From the NCBI RefSeq assembly GCF_900120175.1, contig NZ_FQLF01000002.1, positions 372,001-436,000 on the forward strand: 64,000 bases of DNA. Reading direction: 5' to 3'. A program made the translations under genes and the position numbers. This document shows, one piece after another, positions 20,238-64,000 of this stretch (positions are counted from its first letter, which is position 1; every line of letters starts with the position of its first letter). This DNA comes from Oceanicoccus sp. KOV_DT_Chl. Lineage in GTDB: Bacteria > Pseudomonadota > Gammaproteobacteria > Pseudomonadales > Dasaniaceae. Below the pieces are notes generated by a model that saw only the letters and a list, made by a program, of their open reading frames with translations, ran no database searches and had not been told where the DNA came from.

Positions 20238-20711
20238 ATGAGTCATACCCCTATGGACGTTCGACAAGTAGAATACCTATACCGCAGCAACGGCGCGCGC
20301 TTACTTGACAATGTTTCCGAAGATTTCCATCGCCGCTTGCGGGATAAGTTGCTGACCAAGGGCTACCCCGGCTTGAGACTCTCTTTTGCGGCCATACTCG
20401 GTCACATGTCCTTTAGCGGGACGAGATTGATAGATATTGCCGAGTTCAATGGCATGACCAAACAAGCGATCAGCCAAATCGCCAATGAGATAGAAAGCTT
20501 AGGCTATATCAAACGAATCCCCGACCCTCACGATGGCCGAGCCAAAAATGTGGTATTCACCGAGCTGGGTATTGAAATGATTCAAGCGTCAATCGACGCG
20601 GTGAATGAAGTTACAGAGGAATATGCCGCTCTTATTGGTCACGAAAAAATGCAGCAGCTGGACAGCATATTAAGCGAACTATCCGATAAGCTAGCGCCAC
20701 AACCGATATAA
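20238..20711 (+). CDS. MarR-family transcriptional regulator
   Basis: The protein has 157 residues with a winged helix-turn-helix of MarR type: RLIDIAEFNGMTKQAISQIANEIESLGYI is the recognition region and RIPDPHDGRAKNV the wing. Helices for dimerisation flank it. A TATAAT box is visible at 20144-20149, without a good -35. A purine-rich AGAGGATATT precedes the ATG. The ligand and targets are unknown; the only divergent neighbour is the small lipoprotein gene. Confidence 0.85.
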   Translation: MSHTPMDVRQVEYLYRSNGARLLDNVSEDFHRRLRDKLLTKGYPGLRLSFAAILGHMSFSGTRLIDIAEFNGMTKQAISQIANEIESLGYIKRIPDPHDGRAKNVVFTELGIEMIQASIDAVNEVTEEYAALIGHEKMQQLDSILSELSDKLAPQPI

Positions 20712-20806
20712 ACCAAGTATTAAAAGCCACTAACGATTCCGCAGAACATAAGCAGCTGTAATCAATGGATGACGACCGATAGTTTTTTCAATTGAATAAA
20801 TAAAGA

Positions 20807-22513
20807 CTAGGCCAATAAACTCAACACAGCCTGTGGCTGGGCATTGGCTTGTGAAAGCACGGAAAAGGCTGCTTGCTGAATAATTTGGCTTTTTGCCAAC
20901 TGACCAGTTTCCTTCGCGTAATCAGCATCCAACACTCTGGAGCGACTGGAGGTCACGTTTTCAGCCGTGCTGGTTAAATTATTGATAGTACTTTGCAAAC
21001 GGTTCTGCACTGCCCCCATATCCGCCCTGGTAGTGCTTATATAAGAAATAGCGTCATCGATAATGCTAATAGCCGCATTGGCATCAGAACTGACATCGAT
21101 ATCAGCAATACCCAGCGTGTCAGCACTGGCCCCCCCAACGGAAGCGGTAATAGTCTCATTCGCTTGCGCACCGATTTGGTATTCAACTTCTGTAGCAATC
21201 AGCGTTGAGTCAGTGTTGTAATTGACCGTAACATTGTCAATTGGCTGATCCTCAAAAGCCAACACATTGGGAAGAATGGACGTTGCGGTGAGTTCGGCGC
21301 CACCGGAAGCATCCAGACCACCAATCGCACCGGTGTCGTCATTAGACAGATTCATCGCTGCAAGAAACGTTTCACCATCACCGCCACCGGCTTTAAAGTT
21401 GGTTTCAAAATCTGACAAGCCGCTATAGCTGGTTCTGTTGGCAATGGCGGTGTCCAGAGTACTACCGCCTTTGAGGTCAGTCATAATATCGATAATGCCG
21501 TTACCACCGTTATTATTGATAATATCCTCATGCATGAATGCGACGGCGACATACCCGGCTGCGTAAGTTCCAGTCACATCGTTGTCATTTAGTTTGGCCA
21601 CTAATTCGTCTCTGGTATCGCCGTCACCACTATCAGTGAGGCTGGCCAAAGCGGTGGTGACCCGCTCATCAGCACCGTGTATAAATTCAGCAGTCCCTTC
21701 TAAAAACCAGCTTCCCACACTGCCATTAAGGGTTTCTGCGCGCACACTATTGGCATCAAACTCTCGATACATCATGGCATGAACCATTTCATGAGCAATG
21801 ATCCGGTCATTATAGACCGGTCCGGTGCCGCCATCAGGTAAATTAGGTGGGGTAAAACTATCGATATTAATAGACAGGGTTTGGGACTGTAAAACACCGC
21901 TTACGGTACCACTAATGATAGCGGCCGCGTACGACTCGCCGGAAGTAAATTCAACCTCCAGATCCACACTGCTGGATGATGAATCCAGGCCATAGTAGGT
22001 ACTAACTCGCTCTGCTGCTTCCCGCAACCAGTAATTCTTCAAACCCGTCACAATCTCTTGTTGATCTTCATCGACAATCGACCCGGATACGCCAGCAAAC
22101 AGTTTTTGGCTACCAAAACTCGTCGTCTCCGCTACCCGATCAATTTCTGCTATCAGTTGGGCCACTTCCTTTTGAATATTGGCTTTATCCTGGCTTGATA
22201 AAGCACCGTCATTAGCCGCCTGAATAGAGAGCTCACGCATCCGCTGCAAGTTGTTAGTCACCTCATTAAACGCCCCTTCCGCCACCTGCAAAAACGAAAT
22301 AGCATCATTGGCATTGCGGGCCGCCTGATCAAGGCCGCGAATCTGCGAGGTAAAACGATCGGCTATAGCCAAGCCAGCTGCGTCATCTTTGGCACTATTA
22401 ATACGCAAACCAGAGCTCAACCGCTGCAAACTGGTAGCCAGCGCAGTGCTATTGCCATTCAGCTGCCGCTGGGCATTTAACGAGCTAATGTTGGTATTGA
22501 TGACTAACGCCAA
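20807..22513 (-). CDS. Flagellin with an internal zinc-metalloprotease-like domain (flagellinolysin type)
   Basis: The protein has 568 residues. Residues 1-143 form a normal flagellin N-terminal D0/D1 ([36 protein letters not shown]). About 480-568 form the normal C-terminal D1/D0 ending in [14 protein letters not shown]. Between them, the variable region carries a gluzincin-like peptidase domain of about 150-400. HEMVH is at 241-245 and WFLEGTAEF at 269-277, where E272 would be the third zinc ligand, 27 residues after H245. This is close to M9 collagenase spacing. This architecture is the flagellinolysin family, first described in Clostridium haemolyticum, whose filaments are proteolytic. 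The start is a TTG preceded by GGGGAAG at seven bases. No other flagellar gene is in the window. Confidence 0.9.
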
Positions 22514-22549
22514 GGCGCAACTTCCCCTAATCAGAGTTCTACTAGTTAT

Positions 22550-22576
22550 CTAACGGCCAAGACGGGGATAACTTTA
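22550..22576 (-). promoter_or_regulatory. Sigma-28 (FliA) promoter of the protease-flagellin gene
   Basis: On the minus strand TAAAGTTA (22569-22576) and GCCGTTAG (22550-22557) are separated by exactly 11 bases. The class III flagellar consensus is TAAAGTTT-N11-GCCGATAA, so 7 of 8 and 6 of 8 positions match. The TTG start of the flagellin lies about 36 bases further on. Confidence 0.72.
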
Positions 22577-22631
22577 ACGCGAATGAAGCCAAACGGATTA
22601 AAAAATAACAGCCAAAACAACAGCTTACGAT

Positions 22632-23252
22632 CTAGAGTTTGCTCGATAGATAAAACCAATGGATATAAAACGCTTCTTTTAACCACCGTAGCCAGTAACC
22701 AGGGGAATAATTCATTACCGGTTCCGCCGCTACCAGATGAATCCGCATAGCTAATGCACTCGCCATCAGACTCAACCTGGGCAAGTGGTAGCGATTCGAT
22801 ACCAGCACCAGCTTTTGCTCGGCAGTCACCAATGCCCGCAGCTGCCATAAATTTTCCAGGCTGTGCTTAGAGCGTTGTTCCAAAGTTATCTGTGAGGATG
22901 GCACGCCTTGTTTCTCTAACCAATTTTTCCCCGCCTGCGCCTCCGTTATGGTCGCCGCATTACGGCTACCTCCTAGCAAATAAATCTCGGCGGAATGCTG
23001 CTGCCAGAGCTGCCAACAGTGTTGTAAGCGTAAAGAGAAATCGTCATCGACTAAATCATTTTTTAATTGCTTGCCAGGCACAACATAAGCAAACTCACCA
23101 GTGATCTCGCAGCCATTTGGCGCTTGACTCGCCCGCCGCAAAGTCCACCACAACACTAAAATATAAGAAGCACCTAACGAACCAACAATTACAATAGCTG
23201 TCAGTAATAAAGTGCTAACGGGATGCGGCCCTACTCGACTCTTCGATATCAT
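22632..23252 (-). CDS. DUF218 (YdcF/SanA/ElyC-type) membrane-anchored protein
   Basis: The protein has 206 residues. One N-terminal membrane helix (STLLLTAIVIVGSLGASYILVL, about 14-35) is followed by a DUF218 fold. Recognisable are AYVVPGKQLKNDL, the sugar/nucleotide-loop segment IYLLGGSRNAATITEAQ, SKHSLENLWQL and VLVSNRYHLPRLSLMA. Members affect envelope integrity and undecaprenyl or peptidoglycan metabolism in some species, but the biochemical role is not settled. Its stop lies just upstream of the flagellin sigma-28 promoter, and the two genes need not share a transcript. Confidence 0.75.
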   Translation of the reverse strand: MISKSRVGPHPVSTLLLTAIVIVGSLGASYILVLWWTLRRASQAPNGCEITGEFAYVVPGKQLKNDLVDDDFSLRLQHCWQLWQQHSAEIYLLGGSRNAATITEAQAGKNWLEKQGVPSSQITLEQRSKHSLENLWQLRALVTAEQKLVLVSNRYHLPRLSLMASALAMRIHLVAAEPVMNYSPGYWLRWLKEAFYIHWFYLSSKL

Positions 23253-35930: not shown

Positions 35931-37079
35931 TTATAACCGTTCAATAATGGTGACATTCGCCTGGCCGCCACCTTCACACATGGTTTGCAAACCATAGCGA
36001 CCACCGGTGCGCTCCAGTTCATGCAGCAATGTAGTCATCAACTTGGTGCCCGTCGCTCCCAATGGATGGCCCAACGCAATAGCGCCACCGTTAACGTTGG
36101 TTTTGGCGTGGTCGTAACCGGTATCTTTTAGCCAGGCCATCGCAACCGATGCAAAAGCTTCGTTAATTTCTACCACATCAATGTCATCCAAACTCATGCC
36201 AGCTTTTTTCATCGCGTAAGCCGTAGCAGGAATCGGAGCGGTTAACATCCAGATAGGATCTTCGGCGCGAACACTCATGTGATGAATACGCGCGCGAGGC
36301 GTTAAGTTATAACGCTTTAATGCTGCCTCAGAAACGAGCAATACTGCTGATGAGGCATCGCAGGTTTGGCTGGCAACACCGGCAGTGACTTTGTCGCAGC
36401 CAAAAATACCTTCCAACTCAGCCATTTTTTCCAGCGTACTTTGACGAGGCGTTTCATCCATCGTTACGCCTTCCAGCGGCACGATTTCGCGATCAAAACG
36501 GCCGTCGGCAATCGCCTTGAGGGCACGTGAGTGCGACTCCAAAGAATATTTTTCCAAATCCTGACGACTAAACCCCCACTTATCAGCAATCATTTGTGCG
36601 GAATTAAATTGCGTAGGTGGATTGTTTCCATAACGAGCAACCCAGCCTTTGGAACCCGTAAACGGATCAGAAAAACCCATCGGTTCGGCTGCTATCATTG
36701 CTGAGGAAATAGGAATTTGGGTCATCGTTTGCACGCCGCCCGCCACCACCACATCCATACAACCAGACATAATCGCTTGCGCGGCAAAATGCACTGCTTG
36801 CTGTGAGGAGCCACACTGACGATCGATCGTTGTACCTGGCACTTCCTCAGAAAGACCGGCACACAACCAAGCTGTGCGAGCAATGTCACCTGCCAATGGA
36901 CCAATGGTATCGACACATCCAAAAATCACATCGTCGTATTCGTTATCCGGGATGCCATTACGATCAACAATGGCTTTCAATACATGGGCACCTAAGTCGG
37001 CACCGTGTACATGAGCCAATCCACCTTTACGACGACCGGTGGGGCTGCGAATTGCATCAACGATATAGGCTTCAGCCAT
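35931..37079 (-). CDS. fadA6: FadA6-like thiolase of HIP catabolism
   Basis: The protein has 382 residues from the ATG at 37079 ([13 protein letters not shown]), with GGAG seven bases upstream; the longer frame from 37124 lacks a site. Active-site Cys is in [13 protein letters not shown], His in [14 protein letters not shown], and the second Cys in [30 protein letters not shown] and IPISSAM resemble FadA6 (Rv3556c), which cleaves a ring-opened keto-CoA after IpdAB. It lies between two dehydrogenase genes in the operon. Confidence 0.87.
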
Positions 37080-37140
37080 TTTCAATCTCCGTTTGTCAAA
37101 TGCTCCAATAATTTTTGGTAGCAATGACTTAAATTTTAAA

Positions 37141-44233: not shown

Positions 44234-45825
44234 TTAAACAGCTTTGCCCAGCAACTGCTGTGCTTGTTGCTTTAGCGCAGGCTTTAACACCTTACCGGAT
44301 GCATTTAATGGCAAAGCATCTACAAACTTAATATAAAAAGGCACCTTATAACGAGCTAGCTTAGCGGCACAAAAATCCTGAACTTTTGATTCATCAATCT
44401 CTGCAGACTTCGTTTTTACAATAAACGCCATACCCACCTCACCTTGCGGCTGCTTGGGAACACCGATGACAGCGACTTGCGCAACCCCCGCTAAGCCATA
44501 AAGCGTTTTTTCAACCTCTGCTGGATAGACGTTCTCACCGTTCATGATATACATGTCTTTCAGCCGATCAGTAATGCGGATATAACCACGCTCATCCATG
44601 GTGCCGATATCACCAGTACGCATCCAACCTTCTGCAGTAATAGTTTCAGCAGTCGCTTCCGGCATATCAAAATAACCCTGCATCACGTTATAACCGCGCA
44701 CCCACAGTTCGCCCTCTTCGCCACGCGGTACTTCTTCAGCAGTAGCCACATTGACGCACATCACTTCAATACCATCCAATGCGCGACCGCAGGTACCAGC
44801 AATAATGTCGGCATCATCTTCTGGCCGACAAATACTGACCATGCCGGTGGATTCCGTTAAACCGTAGGCAGTCACCACCGTTTCAAAGCCCAATTCATTG
44901 CGCATATCCTCAACCAGCTTTACTGGCACTGCAGCACCACCAGTGGTGCAAACGCGCAAACTGGAAAGATCATAATTAGCCCGCTGCGGATCATTAAGAA
45001 TCATTTCAAACATAGAGGGCACACCGGGCATAACGGTGATTTTATCGCGCTCGATCTGCGCCATAACCTGTTCGCGATCGAACGCTCGCGCCGGAATGAT
45101 TTTGCAACCTTTGATGATCGCTGCCAGCCAACCGGCCTTGTAACCGAACGAGTGAAAAAAGGGATTGATGATCAGGTAATTATCTTCCGGTCTTAAACCT
45201 ACCGTATTACCCCAAATGGTAAAGACCTGAATATTTTGTCGATGGTTACACAACACACCTTTAGGTTTACCGGTAGTACCCGAAGTAAATAACATATCCA
45301 TAATGTCATCAGGGCTAACCTGATCAATACGTTGCTGTAATTGCAGATCACTGACAACATCACCCAAGGCCAAAAAAGCCTCCCAGCTAAGCGCACGATC
45401 ATCAACATCCTGGAGTAACACTTGATGCTTTAAACTGGGCAGTTCGTGAGCGGCCAGCATCTCCAGCGGTGATCCATTTTCAAGACGAGGAAAGGTCAGT
45501 AATACACGGGCGCTGCTTCTGCGCAAAATATCTGCCGCCTCATGCCCCTGCAAACGATTGATCAACGGCACCAAAATTCCACCAATACTTTGCATACCGA
45601 TAGCGGCAATAATCCACTGATAGATATTGGGCGCCCAAATAGCTGCGCGCTCCCCATGTTGCAGGCCGCCGCCATAAACGCTTTTGCTGCAGCTCTGCCC
45701 GCCAAATGTAATTCGCTGTAGGTGATAGTGACATCACCATCCTGAATAGCGATGCGATCGGCAAAGACGCTGGCCGAAGACGCAACCAGCTGCGGCAGGG
45801 TTTGTGGCGGGGCAGAAAGCGACAT
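44234..45825 (-). CDS. fadD3: FadD3-like HIP-CoA ligase (one frameshift)
   Basis: This is an ANL-superfamily acyl-CoA ligase. The N-terminal frame from the ATG at 45825 (AGGAG site, 12 bases) runs through DRIAIQDGDVTITYSELHLAG and is lost at the CC pair 45666-45667. One base restored gives GLQHGERAAIWAPNIYQWII and joins the main frame. The P-loop is MLFTSGTTGKPKGVL, with YGLTEST, MRTGDIGTMDERGYIRITDR and the terminal catalytic-lysine region LNASGKVLKPAL. The total is 530 residues. The context with ipdABC, echA20 and fadA6 indicates FadD3 (ScdA in Comamonas), which loads CoA onto the propionate side chain of HIP. It heads the regulator operon. Confidence 0.82.
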
Positions 45826-59390: not shown

Positions 59391-60623
59391 CTAGGTAATT
59401 AAATTATTCATTTCAATAATCGGCAGTAATATCGCAAACACAATGGTACAGACTATCACCGCCATCACAACAATCATTAATGGCTCCAAAATAGCCATTA
59501 AGTTCCCCAAGGTCATTTCCAACTCACGTTGCTGATTGGTCGCGGAACGGGTCAGCATGGTTTCTAATTCTCCACTGGCTTCACCGCTTGCCACCATGTG
59601 CACCATCATTGGTGGAAATACTTCCGCCTGCTCCAGCGCCCGGTGCAAGCTACCGCCCTCCTGGACCGAAATTGCGACCGACTTACTGGCCTCGCGCAGA
59701 CGTAAATTACTTAATACCTGCCCAGCGATACGTAAGCCGTCTAACAGAGGCACACCACTGGAAGTTAAAATACTCAGCGTAGAGGCAAACCTCGCGGTAT
59801 CCATCGACGTCACAAGACCGGAAATAAACGGCATTTTTAATAACAAGCCATGCCACACTTTACGTCGCGCAGGACTCTTCAGGAATTGCTGCGCACTGAT
59901 CACCAAGGCAAACATAAAGACAATAACCAGCCACCATTTTTCGGTAAAAAAATCACTGGTGGCGATCACCATTTGCGTCAATACGGGTAACTTCTGGTTA
60001 GTATGCTTAAACATACCCACCAAATCCGGCACCACAAACACCATCAAAATGCCGATCACCCCGACCGACAATACTACGAGAATAATCGGGTAAATCATCG
60101 CGCCTTTCAATTTTTGCTGGGTGTATTGACTGCTCTCGGTATAATCGGCCAACTGTTCCAATACCGTACCCAAAAAGCCTGCATGCTCACCGGCTTTTAC
60201 CATTGAGCAATACATCTCGTTAAACACCAGCGGAAAATCACCGAGGCCATAAGCCAAGCTATGCCCCTCCAGCACACGGGCTCGCACCTGCAAAATCAAA
60301 CTTTTTATTCGGGGTTTGCGCGCCTGCTGGGCAGTCGCGGTTAAGGCTTCATCCAGCGGCATATTGGATTGTACTAGCGTCGCCAGCTGCCGGGTGACCA
60401 GGGCTAAATCCGATTGACTGATGCGCGGCTTAAACCAATTAGCGTAAAAAGGCGTATTTTTATCGTTCGCTTTTGCCGACTTTTCATTGGACTCAGTAAC
60501 TGAAACCGGTTTCAACTGACGCGAACGCAACTGACTTCGCACTTGCCGCTCTGAATCACCTTCCAGCAAGCCTTTGACCATTTTGCCCTTGGCATCGAGT
60601 GCTTTGTAACTAAATGCTGACAT
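59391..60623 (-). CDS. gspF: Type II secretion inner-membrane platform protein F
   Basis: The protein has 410 residues. It begins MSAFSYKALDAKGKMVKGLLEGDSE and has two GspF domains (RQLATLVQSNMPLDEAL... and RFASTLSILTSSGVPLLDGL...) and three membrane helices. MVASGEASGELETML and the ending IVFAILLPIIEMNNLI are typical. It links the ATPase to pseudopilus assembly. Confidence 0.95.
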   Translation of the reverse strand: MSAFSYKALDAKGKMVKGLLEGDSERQVRSQLRSRQLKPVSVTESNEKSAKANDKNTPFYANWFKPRISQSDLALVTRQLATLVQSNMPLDEALTATAQQARKPRIKSLILQVRARVLEGHSLAYGLGDFPLVFNEMYCSMVKAGEHAGFLGTVLEQLADYTESSQYTQQKLKGAMIYPIILVVLSVGVIGILMVFVVPDLVGMFKHTNQKLPVLTQMVIATSDFFTEKWWLVIVFMFALVISAQQFLKSPARRKVWHGLLLKMPFISGLVTSMDTARFASTLSILTSSGVPLLDGLRIAGQVLSNLRLREASKSVAISVQEGGSLHRALEQAEVFPPMMVHMVASGEASGELETMLTRSATNQQRELEMTLGNLMAILEPLMIVVMAVIVCTIVFAILLPIIEMNNLIT

Positions 60624-60640
60624 CGTTTAACACTCCAGCA

Positions 60641-62212
60641 TCAGGCTGCGGTAACCCGCAGCACTTCTTCGACTGTGGTCTCCCCTGCCAACACCCGACG
60701 ACGACCATCATCCAAAATGCCCCCGGACTTTTTACGTGCTTGTTCCAGCATCTGCTGTTCGCTAGCGCCTTCATGAATCATGGAACGCAAGGCATCATCT
60801 ATCATGATCATTTCATAAATACCGGTACGACCTTTATAGCCCGTGTGATTACACTGATCGCAACCGCCAGCACGACAGATAGTCACTTCACTGGCGTCAT
60901 CAGTAATCGCTAACAATAAACGTTCAGCCTCACTGGCAACATGATTCTCTTTACACTGTGGACACAGCACCCGCACCAACCGTTGCGCCATCACCGCAAT
61001 CAAGCTTGATGATAATAAAAACGGCTCGACACCCATATCCTGCAACCGGGTAATAGCACCGACGGCGGTATTGGTGTGCAAAGTGGAAAGTACCAAGTGA
61101 CCAGTCAAACTGGCCTGTACTGCAATTTCTGCGGTTTCTGTATCGCGGATTTCACCCACCATCACCACATCGGGATCCTGGCGTAAAATAGCACGCAAAC
61201 CACGGGCAAACGTCATCTCTACTTTGGCATTAACCTGGGTTTGACCAATGCCGGGTAATAAATATTCCACCGGATCTTCAATGGTTAATATATTTCTGCT
61301 GGTCTCGTTTATTTCTGTAAGACCGGCATAGAGCGTGGTTGTTTTACCGGAACCCGTTGGCCCGGTCACCAGAATAATCCCATGAGGAGTAGACAGCGCT
61401 TTTTTATACGCGGTATTGGCCTGCTCATTCATTTTCAGCTGGCGCAACTCTAATTGCCCGGCTTGTTTATCTAACAAACGCAGTACCACGCGCTCGCCAT
61501 GGGCAGAAGGAATAGTGGATACCCGGATATCCACCGCATGCCCCGCCAATCGAATGGAGATACGACCATCCTGCGGCACTCTTTTCTCGGCGATATCAAG
61601 CTTGGCCATCACCTTTAACCGCGAAACCAGCAACGGTGCTAACAAGCGTTTGGGGGATAGCACTTCAGTTAACACACCATCAATACGAAAACGTACAGTC
61701 AGGCGATCTTCAAAGGTTTCTACATGAATATCCGAGGCCTGCTCTCTTACGGCCTGTGACAACACTGCGTTAATTAAACGAATGACCGGCGCGTCATCCT
61801 CCGCATCCATCAAGTCGGCAGTATCGGGAATATCATCGGCCAGGCGACTTAAATCAAAGTCGGAACCCATATCTTCTGCGACTTGTATCGCTTCATTATT
61901 ATCTTTTTGGTAGACCTTGGTTAAGCGCGTCTGAAATAGTTTGTCACTGATTTCTTCAGTCGTTAGCGCGACATCGAGCACCCGACGCAACTCAATCAGT
62001 GTGGCTACGCGCAAACCACTACGGTAGTAAATTTTCGGCTGATCCTGCTCGTATTCCAGCAACACACCGTGAGTCTGGGCGAAAGTAAACGGCAACCTTT
62101 TTAGCGGGCCATCACCTATCTCATCTTCACCAATAGCATCAAGGTTAACGTCTAGCGGCGGGGCCAGATCAGCTTCCAATTCCACCATAGCTTTGTCAGT
62201 ACTTTCGCTCAT
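60641..62212 (-). CDS. gspE: Type II secretion ATPase E
   Basis: The protein has 523 residues. The Walker A is VTGPTGSGKTTTLYAGL and the Walker B region DPDVVMVGEIRDTETAEIA. The tetracysteine zinc motif lies in VLCPQCKENH and AGGCDQCNHTGYKGRTGIYE. It hexamerises at the inner membrane and powers pseudopilus extension. It lies 17 bases upstream of gspF. Confidence 0.96.
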   Translation of the reverse strand: MSESTDKAMVELEADLAPPLDVNLDAIGEDEIGDGPLKRLPFTFAQTHGVLLEYEQDQPKIYYRSGLRVATLIELRRVLDVALTTEEISDKLFQTRLTKVYQKDNNEAIQVAEDMGSDFDLSRLADDIPDTADLMDAEDDAPVIRLINAVLSQAVREQASDIHVETFEDRLTVRFRIDGVLTEVLSPKRLLAPLLVSRLKVMAKLDIAEKRVPQDGRISIRLAGHAVDIRVSTIPSAHGERVVLRLLDKQAGQLELRQLKMNEQANTAYKKALSTPHGIILVTGPTGSGKTTTLYAGLTEINETSRNILTIEDPVEYLLPGIGQTQVNAKVEMTFARGLRAILRQDPDVVMVGEIRDTETAEIAVQASLTGHLVLSTLHTNTAVGAITRLQDMGVEPFLLSSSLIAVMAQRLVRVLCPQCKENHVASEAERLLLAITDDASEVTICRAGGCDQCNHTGYKGRTGIYEMIMIDDALRSMIHEGASEQQMLEQARKKSGGILDDGRRRVLAGETTVEEVLRVTAA

Positions 62213-62220
62213 TATTCAGC

Positions 62221-64000
62221 TCACAAGCTACTGTTAGAATCTTTGACATTCACTTCAACGGCATTGGGAGCAGCGTCCTCTCTGATCACCTCTAATGCTT
62301 CTAATTGCTGCTGCCACTCGGGTAACAAAGGCAAGTTTTTATCGTCAAGTAAATCCACGCCCTCGTCAATTTCTTCAAGCTGCTTTTCTCGAATCAATCG
62401 GTATTTTCCCGCAGTCACATCATCCATTTGTTTTTTATCGCGGACGATAGTTGGGCGAAGAAAAATGAGTAAATGTTTTTTCCCATGGGTAGTAGAGGTA
62501 CTTCTGAACAAAGAACCAATGATCGGGATATCACCTAACACAGGCACTTTTTGCACCCTCTCGCTGATGTTATCCTCGATCAAACCACCCAGCACAATAG
62601 TTTGACCGTTATCTGCCAGTATTTTGGTATCAATTTTTCGTTCACTGGTAATGGGATTGCTATTTAATACGGCACTGGTCCCCACCACATTGGAAACTTC
62701 TTGTGAAATAGCCAATATCAGCGAATCACCCTCATTAATTTGCGGCGTTACTTTGAGAGTGATACCGACATTTTCACGCTCTACCGTTTGAAACGGATTA
62801 TCCGGGTTAGATGAGCTAGTACCCGTAGCGGTATAAGAGCCAGTAACAAAGGGAATACTTTGACCCACGACAATAGAGGCTTCCTCGTTATCCAGCGTCA
62901 TTAATGACGGCGTGGATAAAATATTTGCTTCGGTATTTTGTTGTAATGCGTTAATAACCACATTAAAACTTAGGTCATCGGCTAACCGCCCTATTCCTAA
63001 CACTTGCCCTGTGGCGCTACCAACCACACCAGCAATACTAGCGCGTGTATCTACAGGGTCACCATTATCATCGGTTTCAAAACCGGCAGCCGCGATAGCA
63101 CCACCCAGCCCAGAATTATTAGAGCCACCATATGCACCGCTATCGTTAATAAATAACCACTCAATACCCAAATCACGGCCATTATCATCTGTCATTTCAA
63201 CAATAATCGCTTCAACCAGCACCTGCGCCCGACGAATATCCAAACGCTGAACCACCGACAATAGCGACTGCATGGTGTCGGCTTCAGCGGTGATAATTAA
63301 GGAATTGGTACCCTCGTCTGCCTCAATGGTCGACGTATGCTTTTTAGCCGCATTGGCAGATTTATCCTGAGAATTCATCTGCTCGATATTCTGCACCACC
63401 TTACTTAACACCTCAGATAAATCTTTGGCTTCGGCGTACTCCAAATAAACGACTTTGACGTTGCCACTTTGTGCAAGAGGAGTATCCAGATAATCAATCA
63501 GCGTTTTTACTCGCTGCCGCTCTAATTCATCACCGGTCACTAACACACTATTAGTCCGCTTATCCGCGACCAACACTAGTTTTTTGGTCTCCGCCTGAGC
63601 TTTACCACCACTATCTTTTGCCAGCTGCTCTAACATGCGAACCACTTCTTCCGCCGCCGCATGCTCAAGGGTGACTACATCGGTTTTTTGAATAGCCGAT
63701 AAATCGATACTGTTAATGACTTGTTTGATACGGGCAATATTGGCTGCGGTATCGGAAATAATAATGGCGTTGCTGGGCGCATAAGCCGCCATGTGTGCTT
63801 GCTGCGGAGCCAATGGTCGCAACACAGGAATTAATTTTGCTGCAGAAATATTCTCTAACTGAATCACCTGGGTGATAATTTCGCTGTTCGCCGCAACATC
63901 ATTCGTAACCACTTGCACCGGAGCGGTTCGTGCGTCTTTCATTGGAATAACACGCACCACCTCACCTGACTCTACAGCGGCAAACCCCTGTATTTCCAGA
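62221..64000 (-). CDS. gspD: Type II secretion secretin D (N-terminus beyond the window)
   Basis: The visible 593 residues cover most of the outer-membrane secretin. The frame continues past 63960 to the window end (LEIQGFAAVESGEVVRVIP), so the signal peptide and first part of N0 are missing. Repeated N1-N3 domains are visible (NAIIISDTAANIARIKQ, NSVLVTGDELERQRVKTLI, NSLIITAEADTMQSLLSVV), then the secretin core VLVEAIIVEMTDDNGRDLGI and VPVLGDIPIIGSLFRST. An S-domain-like C-terminal tail follows. It forms the exit channel for folded exoproteins. gspC, if present, lies to the right of the window. Confidence 0.94.
   Translation of the reverse strand, partial: LEIQGFAAVESGEVVRVIPMKDARTAPVQVVTNDVAANSEIITQVIQLENISAAKLIPVLRPLAPQQAHMAAYAPSNAIIISDTAANIARIKQVINSIDLSAIQKTDVVTLEHAAAEEVVRMLEQLAKDSGGKAQAETKKLVLVADKRTNSVLVTGDELERQRVKTLIDYLDTPLAQSGNVKVVYLEYAEAKDLSEVLSKVVQNIEQMNSQDKSANAAKKHTSTIEADEGTNSLIITAEADTMQSLLSVVQRLDIRRAQVLVEAIIVEMTDDNGRDLGIEWLFINDSGAYGGSNNSGLGGAIAAAGFETDDNGDPVDTRASIAGVVGSATGQVLGIGRLADDLSFNVVINALQQNTEANILSTPSLMTLDNEEASIVVGQSIPFVTGSYTATGTSSSNPDNPFQTVERENVGITLKVTPQINEGDSLILAISQEVSNVVGTSAVLNSNPITSERKIDTKILADNGQTIVLGGLIEDNISERVQKVPVLGDIPIIGSLFRSTSTTHGKKHLLIFLRPTIVRDKKQMDDVTAGKYRLIREKQLEEIDEGVDLLDDKNLPLLPEWQQQLEALEVIREDAAPNAVEVNVKDSNSSL

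Follow-up and report, generated by a model that had tools for sequence, protein, structure and literature searches.

Does a flagellin gene that lies apart from the flagellar genes encode a working protease, and would that protease form part of the filament? The question arises from a 64,000-nucleotide stretch of the genome of Oceanicoccus sp. KOV_DT_Chl (contig NZ_FQLF01000002.1, positions 372,001 to 436,000; the whole stretch is referred to below as the window), in which a sequence-only reading had picked out a flagellin carrying a zinc-metalloprotease domain. We followed this up by computational analysis, and conclude that the protein is very probably a flagellinolysin, which we take to be a sigma-28-driven, exported, filament-embedded gluzincin protease here. 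This kind of protein is already known; the window provides a new member of it, with a modest addition concerning its regulation.

Domain architecture, predicted fold and catalytic residues

The gene occupies 20807..22513 on the minus strand of the window, exactly the coordinates first given for it, and encodes 568 amino acids from a TTG start. Pfam identifies three domains along the protein, in the order Flagellin_N (residues 5–142), Peptidase_M9 (240–329) and Flagellin_C (482–567), and no other at E 0.001. Both flagellin ends are intact, as had been supposed: the N-terminal helical region (PF00669, 152.2 bits; 22088..22501, minus) covers model positions 1–137 of 139, and the C-terminal helical region (PF00700, 86.5 bits; 20813..21070, minus) covers positions 1–86 of 86. 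The Peptidase_M9 match (PF01752) is marginal: it scores 27.7 bits, where the gathering cut-off is 26. The NCBIfam equivalog model for flagellinolysin, NF033876, is covered in full and scores 384.8 bits (cut-off 205), and its E value of 5.9e-115 rules out chance as the source of this identity. The same model is matched by all 44 full-length proteins of our alignment A4, one of which is the window protein.

Between the two ends lies the inserted gluzincin metallopeptidase domain (21218..22087, minus), which was modelled as residues 143–432 with a mean predicted local distance difference test score (pLDDT) of 89.1 and a predicted TM-score (pTM) of 0.90. In the structural comparison (VIA second look), bacterial collagenases fill six of the first seven rows, the other being lugdulysin, an M30 enzyme, and the rows that follow are mostly M1 aminopeptidases. 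The insert is predicted to adopt a gluzincin-like fold, with the gluzincin core present in the model. Foldseek by itself left the fold undecided, and the VIA second look did better; searching solved structures with a profile gave too weak a result for use alone, and phmmer aligned the solved chain 9n59 along nearly the whole protein. The family model, the conservation of the motifs described below and the predicted fold together uphold the flagellinolysin architecture originally proposed.

With collagenases as its nearest structural neighbours and an M9 match that does exceed its cut-off, if barely, the protein might be taken for an M9 collagenase that happens to ride on flagella. We regard this as extremely improbable. 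M9 collagenases carry collagenase activator or collagen-binding domains, neither of which was detected by Pfam in the open reading frame (ORF) at the threshold used above, and the clostridial collagenases are secreted multidomain enzymes, unlike a flagellin insert. The insert is only 14–16% identical to clostridial collagenase peptidase domains (M9; 4ar1, 7z5u, 4ar8). Furthermore, cleavage of type I collagen by the related Clostridium haemolyticum enzyme could not be shown (PMC5595980), and a role on tissue collagen is therefore disfavoured.

The catalytic motifs stand at the residue numbers previously assigned to them. HEMVH (residues 241–245; 21779..21793, minus) contains the two zinc-ligand histidines and the general-base glutamate, with roles as in the C. 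haemolyticum enzyme, and WFLEGTAEF (269–277; 21683..21709, minus) contains the putative third zinc ligand E272, 27 residues past H245, followed by the putative basement residue A275; these roles are again assigned from that enzyme. By analogy with characterised relatives, H241, H245 and E272 would hold zinc, E242 would activate water, and extracellular peptides and proteins would be cut.

Conservation was assessed across 91 loci, the best ORF being taken from each. Scanned with peptide patterns, the genome collection yielded 181 stretches encoding a relative, the best 80 of which were retrieved, and searches of genomes with the hidden Markov model (HMM) supplied a further 11, five of which duplicate proteins already found by pattern. 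This leaves 86 distinct proteins, six of them from the HMM alone (including one that is broken, L010, and one that is not a flagellin, L126). In one set of pattern-fetched loci, 76 of the 80 were used (64 once near-duplicates were removed), and the motif-numbering alignment kept 76 of the 91 loci and dropped 15. Residues D236, H241, E242, H245, W269, E272, G273, E276, G280, Y317 and D393 are invariant in 91/91 loci, a result that is in part one of selection, because 80 of the loci were collected with peptide patterns overlapping both zinc motifs; the six proteins found by the HMM alone also carry the invariant residues.

One position might point to a protease without catalytic activity, its domain serving only as a surface feature of the filament. 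Residue 216 (21866–21868) is Asn, and is the likely counterpart of the calcium-ligand Asp206 of C. haemolyticum, a position assigned by spacing only. However, Asn also occurs here in 21 of the 91 relatives (Asp in 65), and the catalytic residues are all kept both in the window protein and in the copy from a second genome of the same genus (G005), despite an identity of only 57% in the protease domain (72% overall). The proportions of nonsynonymous (pN) and synonymous (pS) differences between these two copies are 0.19 and 0.77, indicating purifying selection, and for the protease domain alone 0.27 and 0.79; only pN and pS are quoted, since synonymous change is saturated outside the N-terminal part. 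An inactive domain is therefore improbable.

A putative sigma-28 promoter and the resident flagellum

The gene stands alone, as an orphan. FliS, FliC, FlaG, FliD, FlgK and a FlgL candidate of the flagellin family are encoded in the flagellar cluster, which lies on another contig. A ribosome-binding-site-like AGGGGA (22523..22528, minus) can be read 9 nucleotides before the TTG, preceded by a sigma-28-type promoter, TAAAGTTA-N11-GCCGTTAG (22550..22576, minus), which begins 63 nucleotides before the start codon. The sigma-28 consensus is TAAAGTTT-N11-GCCGATAA, and the scores given here are matches to this sequence. The site scores 13/16, as does a site at the cell's fliC. A strict sigma-28 pattern, composed after the upstream site had been read, has two matches in the 4.8 Mb of the genome, compared with one for the backward control, and the second match is directly upstream of flgM, the gene for anti-sigma-28. 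FliA is encoded in the genome (268.5 bits against a cut-off of 189.6). Scans of 20600–22800 for sigma-70-type promoters and terminators gave results within about one standard deviation of shuffled sequences.

We note a third flagellin gene (L003:1102-1962), which is also an orphan and encodes a small protein of 286 amino acids, almost without a variable region, whose C-terminal part weakly matches the flagellinolysin model. It has no sigma-28-like site above 10/16.

The upstream test was extended to relatives, using the 250 nucleotides upstream of 75 loci (window excluded), reduced to 55 non-redundant genes by dropping those at least 90% identical. A site reaching 12/16 was found in 28 of the 55, whereas 100 permuted versions of the consensus averaged 1.25 and never gave more than 6; in 23 of the 28 the spacer is 11 nucleotides long. 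The other 27 fall below 12/16, and the rule is therefore not universal at this threshold. An earlier scoring of a redundant set including the window gave 31/63 compared with 26/1043 control ORFs; it covered 63 of 90 loci, the rest having no start or ORF by the script's patterns. A looser, TCAAG-type consensus gives 37/55, a figure that has no permuted control and is not used as evidence.

Despite its distance from the flagellar genes, the flagellinolysin gene thus seems to be turned on together with the other parts of the flagellum, and this is the one new point of the analysis. We infer transcription by FliA, which would follow completion of the hook. In the literature searched by family name together with sigma 28 or FliA (supplements aside) there is no printed statement of sigma-28 control for flagellinolysins, and the word "promoter" is absent from the main texts of PMC5595980 and PMC7643111; the fliA(H) of PMC5595980 is the name of the C. 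haemolyticum flagellin.

The ends of the protein closely resemble the cell's own FliC. Residues 1–140 are 72% identical to it, making FliC third by score among 93 sequences, behind the same-genus orthologue and a Motiliproteus protein, and residues 479–568 are 65% identical, making it second by score among the 93. The protease part has no comparable likeness. This pattern favours mixing of the protein into the resident filament, though it is not a proof. Arguing from relatives, we infer that the protein would be secreted by the flagellar export apparatus and that its D0/D1 ends would co-polymerise with FliC, flagellinolysin forming a minor subunit from whose position in the filament the gluzincin domain would project. 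The benefit, which is the least certain step, would most likely be local protein digestion near the swimming cell, acting on nutrients, matrix or the flagella of other cells.

The enzyme might instead work free of the filament, either as a protease that merely uses flagellar export or after its domain is released by self-cleavage. The Hylemonella gracilis enzyme does cleave itself, and its authors put forward such a possibility (PMC7643111). However, the flagellin ends are complete, conserved and close to those of the resident FliC, and the C. haemolyticum flagellinolysin was located in filaments (PMC5595980). We therefore consider a free protease unlikely, though less so than an inactive one, and prefer the filament-embedded enzyme.

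Distribution, evolution and surroundings

Within the genus, the gene is present above the cut-off in two of seven genomes, the window's own included. The copy in G005 sits, like that of the window, between the CTP synthase gene and the DUF3014 gene. G002 and G006 each carry this interval unbroken on a single contig and lack the flagellinolysin gene, while G001 and G004 are uninformative because the two flanks are on different contigs. Across the order, 12 of 390 genomes (again including its own) have a match above the cut-off, and 10 of these look like whole flagellinolysins, since the 12 include a broken copy in G046 and an RTX-like protein in G304. The G046 copy (L010) is in pieces, with transposase-looking ORFs, judged by eye, on both sides. 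The G304 protein (L126) is a non-flagellin open frame of 4415 amino acids, the readable parts of which resemble RTX repeats, as judged by eye; embedded in it is a protease domain of the flagellinolysin type (NF033876, 219.9 bits, positions 55–338). Part of this locus reads as N.

In the protease-domain tree (83 of 92 rows used), the window protein forms a clade with those of G005 and Motiliproteus sediminis (100/94), apart from Pseudomonas, the window and Motiliproteus proteins being flagged as long branches. The Spongiibacteraceae sequence L085 nests among Nitrosomonas, as do L119 and L125 from its order, a placement which suggests a transfer between Gammaproteobacteria and Betaproteobacteria. 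Lateral transfer of flagellinolysins was described in 2017 (PMC5595980), and this nesting is as expected. Protease-domain relatives also occur on plasmids of Bacillus velezensis (three records, about 32% identity) and of Vagococcus fluvialis (three records, annotated flagellin, covering 55% of the query).

On balance, we lean towards regarding flagellinolysins as a protease module that spreads horizontally and, when it settles outside flagellar clusters, often retains a sigma-28 promoter. Proteolysis on the filament would then be built into the late stage of flagellar expression in many free-living Proteobacteria; the domain also occurs in at least one giant protein of RTX-like type. Filaments that bear enzymes have been recognised before but little studied. 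The window contributes a member on a separate branch that also holds a single same-genus genome and Motiliproteus, and it offers a simple, testable rule: the flagellar sigma factor reads orphan flagellinolysin genes. On this rule, their physiological role could be approached through a single gene, leaving the flagellar cluster untouched.

As to the surroundings, a convergent MarR gene lies at 20238–20711. H. gracilis also has a MarR gene close to flaMP (PMC7643111), but we take this to be coincidental and reject a link: the relatives' 91 loci contain 3171 ORFs, none of which the window MarR matches by blastp or phmmer at E<=1. For the description of the organism as a steroid degrader there is only a hint: a thiolase (35931–37124) exceeds one family cut-off (PRK07801), but a FadD3-like ligase (44234–45595) falls below its own. 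The pair is compatible with steroid-type degradation and does not prove it. Adjoining type II secretion genes gspF, gspE and gspD are found at 59391–63960.

Comparison with characterised flagellinolysins

Related flagellinolysins cleave proteins in a zinc- and calcium-dependent manner (PMC5595980, PMC7643111). The display of many protease copies along the filament, which the sequence-only reading expected of an active enzyme, has been published for a relative. The 2020 study of H. gracilis, which calls itself the second characterisation, reports a broad substrate preference with large hydrophobic residues in P1' and digestion of casein and a foreign flagellin by the domain; feeding on particles or host tissue, the role proposed in the sequence-only reading, is one of several already listed by its authors (PMC7643111).

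FliA(H) of C. haemolyticum, compared here by its published description, has the same architecture and catalytic motifs as the window protein. It differs in being encoded in a flagellar cluster, whereas the window gene lies outside one, and in the spacing of its zinc ligands, with H237 and E262 25 residues apart compared with 27 for H245 and E272 (PMC5595980). HgrFlaMP of H. gracilis likewise has the same architecture, with HExxH and Glu, and like the window gene is an orphan outside the flagellar cluster (PMC7643111). Its gene region (L090) gives 39% identity to the window protein over query residues 4–270 of the protease domain, and it falls in another subclade of the tree than the window protein.
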